From positions 1 to 23,552 of the IMG/VR virus record IMGVR_UViG_3300032006_000087: a stretch of DNA of 23,552 nucleotides; one strand, 5' to 3'. The position numbers were made by a program, and so were the translations under genes. Below the pieces are notes generated by a model. That model was given only the letters and a program-made list of their open reading frames with translations, searched no databases and was not told the origin of the DNA. Source of the DNA: a virus. Below are positions 10,984 through 15,955 of this stretch, piece after piece. Numbering within the stretch: the stretch's first letter is position 1; the number at the start of each line of letters is the position of its first letter.

Positions 10984-11185
10984 GTCAAAGAAAGTCCAAC
11001 CACCTTTGAGTAAAGAAGATAAGGAACTCTTTAATGAAAAAGAGAAACCTAATAAGTATGCTCCAAAGATGAAAGTTGGCAAACCAATTATTAAAGCACC
11101 TGGATCTAAGGTGGTTACAACAGTTGGTTTAGGTAATTTAACTGTAGAAACAATCAATGGCGACACTAACGTACAACCCAAATGA
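10946..11185 (+). CDS. Small basic protein between portal and scaffold, 79 aa
   Basis: Starts with GTG behind a GGAGGA Shine-Dalgarno, overlapping the portal gene by 38 nt and the scaffold gene by 29 nt. The N-terminus is very basic (PSRPKRVRSKKVQPP), the middle is Lys-rich and charged, and the C-terminus is apolar (VVTTVGLGNLTVETI). There is no membrane segment or named domain. T7 also has small genes in this part of its genome. The position between portal and scaffold suggests a minor head or assembly factor. Confidence 0.7.
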   Translation: MDKVNPSRPKRVRSKKVQPPLSKEDKELFNEKEKPNKYAPKMKVGKPIIKAPGSKVVTTVGLGNLTVETINGDTNVQPK

Positions 11186-11942
11186 GCAAGCTGAAGGCGA
11201 GCTTACTGCAGAAGAGCAAGAGTCACTTGCAGTTGGTGAAAAACTAGCTGAACAACAGAATGAATTGCTTGCTGGTAAATTTAAAGACGCGGAGGAACTT
11301 GAAAAAGGTTACATCGAACTCCAGAAAAAGCTTGGCTCTCCGGAGGAGAAGACTGAAGAGGAACCTACTGAGACCAAAGACGAAAAGGTAGAGGAGAAAG
11401 AGAAAGAGGAAGATGAAAAAGTTGACACCTCTTTTTTGGATACTTTATGGGAAGAAGCTCAAGGAGAATTCAGTAAAGAAACTCTAGAGAAACTAGCTGG
11501 CATGGATTCTCGTGAAGTAGCACAGATGTATTTAAATTATCGTGCAGAGAATAAAACACCAGCACCAACATCAGAAGGTCTTACAGATGAAACCGTCTCA
11601 CAATTGAAAGATGTAGTAGGCGGTGAAGAGCAGTATGGACAGATGATGCAGTGGGCTTCCACTAATCTCAGTGCTAAAGAAGTTGAGATGTATGATCAAG
11701 TCATGGATAGAGGAGATCCTCTTGCAGCATTCTTTGCTGTTCAAGCACTCACCTATAGATTCAATGATTCACGTGGAGTAGATGGAGAAATGCTTCAAGG
11801 TAAAGCACCTACTAATAACGCTGATGTATTCAGAAGCCAAGCTCAAGTAGTAGAAGCTATGAATGACCCACGTTATGAAAAAGATCCTGCTTATCGCCAG
11901 GACTTATATAATAAACTTGAACGATCTAATATAGATTTCTAA
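11157..11942 (+). CDS. Capsid scaffolding / assembly protein (T7 gp9-like)
   Basis: 261 residues. It is very acidic, with a Glu/Lys-rich low-complexity segment at about 60-92 and helical segments before and after, typical of T7 gp9-type scaffolds (gp9 is 307 residues). FKDAEELEKGYIELQKKLG and the C-terminal FRSQAQVVEAMNDPRYEKDPAYRQ region are characteristic of the family. The scaffold forms the core of the procapsid around which the major capsid protein polymerises, then leaves at DNA packaging. It lies downstream of the portal as in T7. The capsid gene, next in T7, is displaced here by the psbA-hli cassette. Confidence 0.92.
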   Translation: MATLTYNPNEQAEGELTAEEQESLAVGEKLAEQQNELLAGKFKDAEELEKGYIELQKKLGSPEEKTEEEPTETKDEKVEEKEKEEDEKVDTSFLDTLWEEAQGEFSKETLEKLAGMDSREVAQMYLNYRAENKTPAPTSEGLTDETVSQLKDVVGGEEQYGQMMQWASTNLSAKEVEMYDQVMDRGDPLAAFFAVQALTYRFNDSRGVDGEMLQGKAPTNNADVFRSQAQVVEAMNDPRYEKDPAYRQDLYNKLERSNIDF

Positions 11943-12242: not shown

Positions 12243-13292
12243 ATGTCCGCTGTAATTGCTCAACCCAGACGTAATTGGGATCTCTTTTGTGAGTGGGTTA
12301 CAAGCACTGAGAACCGCCTCTACGTGGGGTGGTTCGGTGTTCTTATGATACCTACACTATTAACTGCAACAACTTGTTTTATTATTGCTTTTATTGCAGC
12401 ACCACCTGTTGATATTGACGGGATTAGGGAACCTGTATCAGGTGCTCTAATGTATGGAAATAACATTATCTCTGGTGCTGTTGTCCCTAGCAGCAATGCT
12501 ATCGGAATGCACTTTTATCCTATATGGGAAGCTGGTACAATCGATGAATGGCTCTATAATGGAGGACCGTATCAGCTAGTTATATCCCATTTCCTTATTG
12601 GTATCTCAGCTTACATGGGACGTCAATGGGAATTATCCTATCGCTTGGGCATGCGCCCTTGGATTTGTGTTGCTTATTCTGCACCAATCTCAGCAGCCTT
12701 TGCTGTCTTCCTCATTTATCCTTTCGGACAAGGAAGTTTCTCTGACGGTATGCCGTTGGGGATATCAGGAACGTTCAACTTTATGTTTGTCTTTCAGGCG
12801 GAACATAATATCCTCATGCATCCTTTCCATATGTTGGGAGTTGCGGGGGTATTTGGTGGATCTCTTTTCTCTGCTATGCATGGATCATTGGTCTCCAGTT
12901 CTATTATCAAAGAGACAACAGATAATGAATCACCAAACTACGGGTATAAGTTCGGACAAGAAGAAGAAACTTATAACATCGTAGCAGCTCATGGATATTT
13001 CGGGAGGTTAATTTTCCAATATGCCAGCTTTAATAATAGCCGTAGTCTTCATTTCTTCCTTGCTGCTTGGCCAGTCGTTTGCATATGGCTTACCAGTATG
13101 GGAGTCTCAACCATGGCTTTCAATCTCAACGGTTTTAACTTCAATCAATCCATTATTGACTCAACTGGGCGAGTGGTTCCGACATGGGCTGACGTGCTCA
13201 ACCGTGCCAACTTAGGATTTGAAGTTATGCACGAGCGTAATGCTCACAATTTCCCTCTAGATTTAGCAGCGGAAAAAATAACGGTAGGGTAA
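12243..13292 (+). CDS. psbA: Photosystem II reaction-centre protein D1
   Basis: 349 residues of near-canonical cyanobacterial D1, two residues shorter at the N-terminus. In standard D1 numbering, Tyr161, Asp170, His190, His198, His215, His272, His332, Glu333, His337, Asp342 and Ala344 are all present, so the charge-separation and Mn-cluster ligands are intact and the protein should be functional. The residue at D1 position 130 is Gln (GRQWELS), as in the D1:1 form of cyanobacteria. The C-terminal extension after Ala344, removed by CtpA, is only 7 residues (AEKITVG) instead of about 16. Phage D1 replaces rapidly turned-over host D1 and sustains photosynthesis during infection. No promoter separates it from upstream genes, so expression is probably late and operonic. 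Confidence 0.99.
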
Positions 13293-13352: not shown

Positions 13353-13538
13353 ATGACTACAACAACTGAACAAGGTGGACGCTTCAATCGTTATGCAAAT
13401 GAACCGCAAGTAGAAGTACTTGACATACAGTATGCTGAGAACGCAGAACGTGTTAATGGACAACTAGCTATGCTTGGATTCGTTGCTGCTGTTGGCGCTT
13501 ACCTATTCACCGGTCAGATTATACCTGGCGTTTTCTAA
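13353..13538 (+). CDS. hli: High-light-inducible protein (HLIP / CAB-ELIP superfamily)
   Basis: 61 residues with one chlorophyll-binding transmembrane helix: AERVNGQLAMLGFVAAVGAYLF, ending in TGQIIPGVF (about 53-61). The E..NG..AM.GF core is the family signature. The position usually Arg is Gln here, as seen in some phage members. The TGQIIPG ending marks the type shared by cyanophages and the multicopy hli genes of Prochlorococcus. HLIPs sit in thylakoids and protect PSII assembly and D1 from light damage, which explains pairing with psbA 60 nt upstream. No Shine-Dalgarno is visible. Confidence 0.97.
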   Translation: MTTTTEQGGRFNRYANEPQVEVLDIQYAENAERVNGQLAMLGFVAAVGAYLFTGQIIPGVF

Positions 13539-13678: not shown

Positions 13679-14050
13679 ATGAAACTTATTGCACTTGCAG
13701 CACTGACTGCATCAGCAGCCTTGGCTACACCTGCAACAGCGGGAGTCTTCGTGAACGTGGAAGCAAATTCTTCCCGCACCGGAAGCAATTTCGAATCTAC
13801 CGTAACAGATCTACATGTAGGTTATGAAGGTGGTGGTGAACAGTTTGGTTATTATGTTCAAGGCGGTCCTGCTATCGTAGCAGTTGACGGTGTTGATTCT
13901 GATAACAGACTCTCCGGTAAACTTGGTGGTTCTTTCCAGGCCACTGAAGCATTTGGAGTTTATGGTGAAATCTCAGTACTTACTGCTGACAATGACACCA
14001 ATAATGACAACTCCTGGGGAACCAAGATCGGAGCTAAATATAGCTTCTGA
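13679..14050 (+). CDS. Exported outer-membrane beta-barrel-like protein, 123 aa
   Basis: The N-terminus is a clear Sec signal peptide: MKLIALAALTASAALATPATA with cleavage after Ala21 (A-T-A), shown here only to define the site; residues 4-16 are the hydrophobic core. The mature part of about 102 residues has alternating polar/apolar strands rich in Gly, Tyr and Val (VFVNVEANS, DLHVGYEG, YYVQGGPAIVAV, KLGGSFQAT, FGVYGEISVL) and ends in KYSF. A C-terminal Phe after an amphipathic strand is the BAM-recognised signal of outer-membrane barrels. About six strands are visible, a small barrel. The function is unknown; it may remodel the host surface during infection. It lies in the psbA-hli cassette and overlaps the next gene at TGATG. 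Confidence 0.8.
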   Translation: MKLIALAALTASAALATPATAGVFVNVEANSSRTGSNFESTVTDLHVGYEGGGEQFGYYVQGGPAIVAVDGVDSDNRLSGKLGGSFQATEAFGVYGEISVLTADNDTNNDNSWGTKIGAKYSF

Positions 14051-14229: not shown

Positions 14230-14781
14230 ATGCCTTTTACAACCAACACTAGTCAAGGAATTGTTAACTATACAACTAACAGTTTCTATGATAAATCTAT
14301 TATTATAGCGAATGATACTGATTCACTATCTTCTAATACTTTAGCAACACAAGATGGCTTTACTATAGCACTTGGCGGGTATGAAAGGGTGATGGGTAAG
14401 TATGTTCTCTGGTATGATTCAGATAACACTAATGAACTTAAGTTTATAGTTAGAACTGTAGCTCAATCTGATGGTACCACAGCTGTTGCAAGTACAATCT
14501 ATACACAAGCAATCGCTAGTGTACTAGAATCTACTTCAGCTGCTACTTGTGCAGCTACTGCATTAGAATCATCAGGTACATCTTCTACAGATGGAACAGG
14601 TGTAGAGCTTGAAGTTGACATCGGTGCGGCTACAACTGGCACACTATTGACTGTAGATTTCAATGTTCTAAGTACAGCATCTACAAAAGCTAACTTAGTA
14701 TTAGCAGCACGTAATACAAGCGGTTCTGGCGCAGGAACTCACTTCTTAGCTGGTTCACATGTATTGTATAAGAAGTGGTAA
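14230..14781 (+). CDS. Unknown Thr/Ser/Ala-rich protein upstream of the capsid gene, 183 aa
   Basis: A soluble, Thr/Ser/Ala/Gly-rich, beta-prone protein without signal peptide or membrane helix. It has long strand-like stretches (FTIALGGYERVMGKYVLWYDS, given here only as the region near residues 44-64) and ends in HVLYKKW. This composition is typical of virion surface or decoration proteins. It is separated from the major capsid gene only by a structured leader. A capsid decoration role is an inference from composition and position. It starts in the TAATTATG context shared by other late genes. Confidence 0.75.
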   Translation: MPFTTNTSQGIVNYTTNSFYDKSIIIANDTDSLSSNTLATQDGFTIALGGYERVMGKYVLWYDSDNTNELKFIVRTVAQSDGTTAVASTIYTQAIASVLESTSAATCAATALESSGTSSTDGTGVELEVDIGAATTGTLLTVDFNVLSTASTKANLVLAARNTSGSGAGTHFLAGSHVLYKKW

Positions 14782-14944: not shown

Positions 14945-15955
14945 ATGGCTACGCTAACCCAGTCAGTAGTAGGTACCCTTAATAAGGCTGCCTCTGATAC
15001 TTCTGGCGCAGTTGCATATGATACCAAGTATGCAACCTATTTGAAGCTGTTCTCAGGTGAGCTATTTAAAGCTTATGAGTCAGCAACTATAGCAAAAGGA
15101 ACTGTACAGAACCGTCAACTAAAGAACGGTAAGAGTCTACAGTTCATCTTTACGGGACGTATGCAAGCTGCTTATCATACTCCTGGAGAACCAATCCTTG
15201 GATCTGGTGATCCTCCAGTAGCAGAGAAGACTATCGTCTGTGACGACCTTCTCATAAGCTCAGCTTTCGTATATGATCTCGATGAAACACTTGCTCATTA
15301 CTCCCTACGTTCAGAGATCTCCAAGAAGATTGGACATGCTCTAGCTGAGGCATATGACAAGAAAGTATTCCGTACTATCGCACTAGCAGCACGCTCTGCT
15401 CACCCAATCACTGCATCACCAGGTCCAGAACCAGGTGGTTCCGTTATTAAGATTGGTTCGAACAATGAGTATGATGCTCAGAAACTAGTAGATTCATTCT
15501 TTGAAGCTGCTTCAATTCTTGATGAAAAGAACCTACCTAAGACTGGTAGAACTGCAGTACTCGCACCTCGCCAGTACTACGCTCTAGTATCTCAGGTCGA
15601 TTCGAACATCCTCAACCGTGACTACGGAAATACACAAGGTAACTTGAATTCTGGAGAAGGTTTGGTATCTATCGCTGGTATCAACATCCAACGTTCTAAC
15701 AACCTACCATTCCAAGCTGGTACAATTAATGCTGTAACTGGTGAAAACAACGATTATTCCGGTGCTTTCGCTAACCATGCAGGATTGATTTATCAGAAGG
15801 ATGCAGCTGGTGTTGTTGAAGCAATTGGACCACAAGTACAAACAACCGGAGCCGATATTAAGACAATGTATCAAGGCGACTTGATCGTTGGACGTTTGGC
15901 AATGGGTGTAGGTACATTGAACCCTGCTGCTGCAATTGAAATACAAACTGCTTGA
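14945..15955 (+). CDS. Major capsid protein (T7 gp10-like)
   Basis: 336 residues, close to T7 gp10A (345). The HK97-fold T7 family pattern is visible: a short N-terminal arm, then KLFSGELFKAYESATIA, GKSLQFIFTGRMQAAYHTPG in the E-loop region (about 60-81), DLLISSAFVYDLDETLAHYSLRSE across the spine, AEAYDKKVFRTIALAARSA, LPKTGRTAVLAPRQYYAL, and the C-terminal GDLIVGRLAMGVGTLNPAAA. It forms the icosahedral shell with the scaffold and portal encoded upstream. It follows a structured 163-nt leader and is followed within 550 nt by an intrinsic terminator, which would raise its mRNA level over downstream tail genes as in T7. Confidence 0.96.
   Translation: MATLTQSVVGTLNKAASDTSGAVAYDTKYATYLKLFSGELFKAYESATIAKGTVQNRQLKNGKSLQFIFTGRMQAAYHTPGEPILGSGDPPVAEKTIVCDDLLISSAFVYDLDETLAHYSLRSEISKKIGHALAEAYDKKVFRTIALAARSAHPITASPGPEPGGSVIKIGSNNEYDAQKLVDSFFEAASILDEKNLPKTGRTAVLAPRQYYALVSQVDSNILNRDYGNTQGNLNSGEGLVSIAGINIQRSNNLPFQAGTINAVTGENNDYSGAFANHAGLIYQKDAAGVVEAIGPQVQTTGADIKTMYQGDLIVGRLAMGVGTLNPAAAIEIQTA

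Follow-up and report, generated by a model that had tools for sequence, protein, structure and literature searches.

Among the structural genes of a T7-like cyanophage lies a short open reading frame (ORF) whose product carries the marks of an outer-membrane protein, raising the question of where this protein goes in an infected cyanobacterium and what it does there. The window, meaning the whole 23,552-base stretch of DNA that was analysed, is a virus record with portal, scaffold, psbA, hli, major capsid and tail genes. The first-pass annotation had described the ORF as a host-modifying outer-membrane barrel gene held in a photosynthesis cassette, with possible effects on envelope permeability, nutrient uptake or superinfection by other phages.

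The Phage_OMP gene and its family

The protein encoded by this ORF (Table 1) matches the family PF24653, Phage_OMP, with an E-value of 4e-40 and 137 bits against a curated cut-off of 27, covering positions 5-122 of the 122 in the profile. The Pfam description of this family is 'Cyanophage outer membrane protein like beta barrel domain'. With pairwise dN/dS ratios of ~0.1-0.2 against its relatives, the gene is real, conserved and under purifying selection. The Sec signal, AxA motif, amphipathic strands and C-terminal phenylalanine noted earlier were all found, and the pattern of AxA followed by G at the signal cleavage site recurs in 68 of the 71 aligned relatives. The C-terminal Bam β-signal (polar-x-G-x-x-hydrophobic-x-aromatic, ending in Phe) recurs in every one of the 71. 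Export by the Sec and Bam machineries into the host outer membrane is very probable, and the broader claim of a host-acting outer-membrane beta protein is well supported by the family match, the signal, the β-signal, the fold search and the outer-membrane-type relatives found in hosts.

Table 1. Features of the Phage_OMP locus and its surroundings, with positions given in the window. Strand boundaries are predicted.
Feature	Position	Strand	Description or evidence
Scaffold protein gene	11157..11942	+	Similarity to annotated 9515-10a scaffold; neighbourhood counts; upstream limit of podovirus OMP interval
psbA (PSII D1), optional neighbour	12243..13292	+	phrog_182
hli (high-light-inducible protein), optional neighbour	13353..13538	+	phrog_178
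Phage_OMP gene (PF24653), 123 aa	13679..14050	+	ATG start, stop included; ORF, Pfam match, dN/dS
Sec-type signal peptide, residues 1-21	13679..13741	+	Motif prediction; cut after ATA21 before G22 (AxA then G); low-confidence helix in models
Mature outer-membrane module, 102 aa	13742..14047	+	10.6 kDa, pI 4.2; block-mean pLDDT 91-96 except residues 101-110
Strand 1, residues 22-34	13742..13780	+	Lumen face Y/F24 N26 E28 N30
Strand 2, residues 37-52	13787..13834	+	Lumen face D44 H46 G48 E50
Strand 3, residues 56-69	13844..13885	+	Lumen face Y59 Q61 G63
Strand 4, residues 75-87	13901..13939	+	Lumen face S79 K81 G83
Strand 5, residues 92-101	13952..13981	+	YGE motif; lumen face Y95 E97
Strand 6, residues 112-121	14012..14041	+	Lumen face K116 G118 K120
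C-terminal Bam β-signal, residues 116-123	14024..14047	+	KIGAKYSF; pattern in 71/71 relatives
Small ORF, 43 aa	14050..14181	+	ATG overlaps OMP stop (TGATG); one hydrophobic segment then HMYEHQHCRSCEPCE
Major capsid protein gene	14945..15955	+	phrog_267; downstream limit of podovirus OMP interval

The family is already named in databases, and the core claim of an outer-membrane-type barrel protein is not new. The phage protein is a member of phrog_417 (function unknown), and among its relatives are Syn9 gp222, which is 52% identical over the matched parts and adjoins a glutaredoxin gene, and S-TIM4 ORF224, which is 38% identical over the matched parts, annotated as DUF680 and called PhCOG173. 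The window protein and these family members are alike in length, signal, strands and C-terminus, with no separating feature. No DUF680 match was obtained in current Pfam at E-values up to 10, and the sole other sequence-family match was a weak similarity to OMP_b-brl (E 0.15). The homologues to be sought in cyanophages and hosts were recovered, in picocyanobacterial genomes and in 405 phage records identified by name as Synechococcus and Prochlorococcus phages, cyanophages, and uncultured or marine viruses.

A spread of the family to assorted bacterial and archaeal hosts was also considered, and was rejected wherever it could be checked: seven such loci have cyanophage neighbours (portal, scaffold, capsid, psbA, or nrdC-td-phoH) and, because these genes adjoin, they are phage contigs within bins or assemblies. 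Six of them, Phage_OMP contigs binned in MAGs of Dehalococcoidia, Euryarchaeota, Flavobacteriales and others, represent binning contamination. The seventh, a 188-kb contig of Nonlabens xiamenensis (NZ_RMVE01000006.1), has nrdC-td-phoH beside Phage_OMP in a cyanomyovirus layout and a size that fits such a phage, and is probably a phage genome within an isolate assembly. One single-module copy on a 2.4-Mb picocyanobacterial contig (G120:C1:132523-132861) has decayed, carrying two TAG stops, and is likely a relic of phage DNA in the host chromosome.

Predicted strands and ring closure

AlphaFold2 was run twice on one chain only, with 71 and 109 sequences, and both runs returned a low-confidence signal followed by six confident strands, with a pTM of 0.69 and high pLDDT over most of the mature part (Table 1). 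Alternation of side chains along these strands exceeds chance; the mean face difference is 2.76 versus 1.10 in within-strand shuffles, none of 5000 shuffles reaching 2.76. The same polar face holds most of the residues conserved among the 71 relatives, namely Y24, N26, E28, N30, D44, H46, G48, E50, Y59, Q61, G63, K81, G83, Y95, E97, K116, G118 and K120. A fold search of the PDB, used for fold class only since its E-values are weak (best 0.03), returned outer-membrane barrels as the leading neighbours, with OmpX first (TMq 0.57, E 0.03) and OprF, OmpA, Ail, OmpG and porins also listed. The corresponding search of a viral library led back to the Phage_OMP family, and a family-profile sequence search of solved structures gave no meaningful match.

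To our knowledge, the smallest natural membrane barrels have eight strands, two more than the six predicted for the phage chain. Covariation across 308 unique sequences recovered the antiparallel pairing of neighbouring strands, and β1-β6 was the strongest non-adjacent antiparallel pair, in 48 of 60 subsamples. The block-permutation p for this pair is 0.11, which is not significant, and the mfDCA is underpowered for ring closure at an effective number of 66, with the expected β2-β3 pair also failing the permutation test. The β1-β6 coupling fits closure within one chain or between chains, and closure of one kind or the other is suggested by the alignment. The six strands of both AlphaFold2 runs and this level of β1-β6 coupling do not demonstrate the closed barrel initially ascribed to the chain.

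Gene neighbourhoods in phages and hosts

T7-like structural genes were found in the flank of 145 of the 340 phage loci with a Phage_OMP match. In podoviruses, the gene lies between the scaffold and major capsid genes, with psbA upstream, downstream or absent; at 27 podovirus loci, including two near relatives of the window, scaffold and capsid genes occur on either side with no psbA in the flank. T4-like phages carry the gene with nrdC, td and phoH. Because of these scaffold-capsid loci without psbA and the separate address in T4-like phages, the link to photosynthesis genes is incidental: the fixed podovirus address is the scaffold-capsid interval, and neither the fixed place with psbA-hli nor the membership of a photosynthesis cassette that had been claimed for the gene survives the comparison.

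A second, separate copy of the OMP gene was found nearby, mostly just downstream, at 15 of the 340 phage loci. Two adjacent divergent Phage_OMP genes, present as separate ORFs on one contig, were seen at ten individually noted loci and at others. No two-module chain was found in the 340 phage loci or in the viral contigs searched with the host protein, and the window protein is itself single-module. The small ORF that overlaps the OMP stop ends in a tail, HxHCRxCxxC, that is kept in six related loci and lost or altered in others (two examples noted), and its product is a possible metal-binding partner. Between the OMP and capsid genes, at 14230-14781, the window also contains a 183-aa Thr/Ser/Ala-rich ORF with no convincing family match.

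For cellular relatives, PF24653 was scanned against 300 genomes (the family of Prochlorococcus AG-418-C09), a 386-genome phylum sample and 14 control genomes. Besides phage-like copies, the 300-genome scan yielded host proteins above the family cut-off, matches in the phylum sample were few and again of these kinds, and the 14 control genomes gave none; cyanobacterial matches are confined to picocyanobacterial-type genomes. The best host proteins, of ~256 aa, carry two tandem PF24653 modules (E 2e-13 and 1e-13, both above the curated cut-off), and in profile-profile comparison the phage family matches their first half with a probability of 96 and their second half with a probability of 85. End-to-end alignment of phage and host proteins keeps E28, GY, GP, K81, YxE, K116 and G118. 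Proteins of a second host group are 320-400 aa long with His-rich loops, and their C-terminal half matches the phage family (probability 80). A host match of this His-rich group was found in 96 of the 300 genomes, and the short 256-aa group, which contains the closest host relatives of the phage module, is rarer (~6 of 300). The module is thus the same in phage and host, however the host chains hold two modules (~256 aa) or reach 320-400 aa with His-rich loops, whereas the phage chain has one module and no such loops.

Genes for these host proteins lie in zinc loci, as counted in the fetched flank of mostly 1.5 kb. ZnuA (PF01297) is near 34 of the 38 His-rich host genes, and ZnuA, COG0523 (CobW) or Fur/Zur is near 36 of the 38 and near all five of the short ones. 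The host layout, with znuC divergent from znuA and the OMP-type gene after znuA, is the same as that of synw0970/0971/0972 in Synechococcus WH8102, in which the uncharacterised synw0972 is Zur-repressed and induced at low zinc (PMC9337993). From this synteny we infer that synw0972 is this OMP-type gene. At three host loci and others, a His-rich outer-membrane-type protein named only by the phage Pfam family is encoded directly 3' of znuA, and is probably SYNW0972. The zinc exoprotein ZepA (PMC10957091) was considered as a candidate and dropped, as nothing supported it. The occurrence of modules that are fused in hosts and unfused in phages, some of which have two neighbouring copies, is what would be expected if two modules must meet as a working unit, without amounting to proof.

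Possible functions in the infected cell

A literature search found no functional study of the family under its Pfam name or as a cyanophage outer-membrane barrel, and published observations on individual relatives bear on its role. S-TIM4 populations passaged in WH8102 under nutrient-replete conditions all mutated ORF224, often by nonsense mutation, frameshift or deletion. In the authors' proposal, expressing the gene carries a fitness cost in WH8102, and the gene serves a nutrient response and is lost when nutrients are replete; they classed it as non-structural, and it is dispensable in this host (PMC6224464). A gene of the Phage_OMP family is over-represented at BATS, as is pstS (PMC3686209), and a 122-aa relative was detected by LC-MS in S-SZBM1 virions (PMC9146016).

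In the reading that we favour, the phage protein would be exported by the host Sec system and assembled by the host Bam machinery in the outer membrane of the infected cyanobacterium, where two copies, or one copy and the adjacent paralogue in some T4-like phages, would join along their edges to form a 12-strand barrel resembling that of the fused host protein. The conserved residues E28, D44, H46, E50, K81, E97, K116 and K120 would then line its interior. Such a barrel would let more of a scarce ion through the outer membrane during infection, and the gene would be an asset to the phage in poor water and a cost in rich medium. Zinc is the leading candidate because the host relatives lie in zinc loci, and phosphate-linked nutrition is the alternative, drawn from the literature. 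Taken whole, this paired half-barrel raising the passage of a scarce ion is a tentative proposal, judged somewhat short of an even chance. Its parts differ in standing: the location is well supported; the pairing, proposed since a single module supplies just six strands, is plausible and evenly balanced; and the substrate is speculative, a role in scarce-ion passage with zinc first, linked by association, being possible but doubtful. Among the effects first suggested for the protein, altered nutrient uptake fits best because of the host relatives in zinc-uptake loci, although its substrate stays in the realm of speculation. A counterpoint to zinc is that most znuA-linked host proteins have His-rich loops, which are absent from the phage module, and the narrower proposal, that a free six-strand half-barrel becomes a membrane barrel only on pairing with a second copy and, as the unfused counterpart of the host zinc-locus protein, controls metal entry, is rather unlikely.

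The rival explanations rank in the order of a monomeric OmpX/Lom-like surface protein, interference with a host protein, a virion part and a lysis aid. Lom of phage lambda is a phage-encoded outer-membrane protein of the OmpX/Ail type, and the cyanophage product may likewise be a tiny single-chain barrel of six strands with loops that modify the cell surface, for instance to block adsorption or DNA entry by other phages. The PDB fold search, led by OmpX and also listing OprF, OmpA and Ail, and the confident compact sheet of the AlphaFold2 monomer agree with this, the β1-β6 covariation (p 0.11) would be consistent with a ring closed within a single chain, and the position among capsid genes may suggest expression in time to seal the infected cell. 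However, OmpX, Ail and Lom, which are likewise small outer-membrane beta proteins, have the eight strands of the smallest membrane barrels and not six, the nearest cellular relatives are double modules, the conserved inner face bears many charged and aromatic side chains, and most loops are short, with the conserved residues located on the inner face and not in the loops; we consider the single-chain surface role unlikely. Less probable again is a dominant-negative or decoy action, in which the half-barrel would pair with, or jam, the host two-module protein or the Bam machine and thereby alter host metal uptake or receptors instead of adding a channel. The phage protein does resemble precisely one module of its host counterpart and ends at the same β-signal position, and its expression is apparently costly in WH8102 (PMC6224464), but its inner-face residues are conserved across phage groups, as expected of a working lumen, and the host protein was matched in only 96 of 300 picocyanobacterial genomes, many of which may be incomplete.

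An improbable explanation that comes next in order is that of a virion component or structural assembly factor, in keeping with the location between scaffold and capsid genes in podoviruses and with the relative in S-SZBM1 virions (PMC9146016). The assertion of the first-pass annotation that the protein is not part of the virion agrees with the non-structural, dispensable relative of S-TIM4 (PMC6224464) and is at odds with this virion proteome, a detection that could be explained by outer-membrane debris, which can co-purify with virions. A signal peptide and a Bam β-signal would be unneeded in a virion, and the nrdC/td/phoH address in T4-like phages also argues against a structural role. A spanin-like aid to outer-membrane lysis, working with the overlapping small membrane ORF, is very unlikely: the 43-aa ORF starts within the OMP stop, is conserved in near relatives and shares the capsid gene cluster, but it is absent or altered in many relatives, its ~20-residue tail is too short to cross the periplasm, and the neighbours in T4-like phages are genes of nucleotide metabolism.

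New in this analysis are the six-strand count, the tandem host relatives in zinc loci, the adjacent phage copies and the scaffold-capsid address. Of the marine cyanophage genes that have no assigned role, those of the Phage_OMP family are some of the more widespread, and the link to host proteins encoded in Zur/ZnuA zinc loci replaces an orphan annotation with a specific, testable job. If the zinc reading is true, trace-metal supply would join the host functions that phages adjust, and if the six-strand chains pair, they would follow an uncommon route to an outer-membrane protein and might illustrate, in present-day organisms, how barrels double in evolution.
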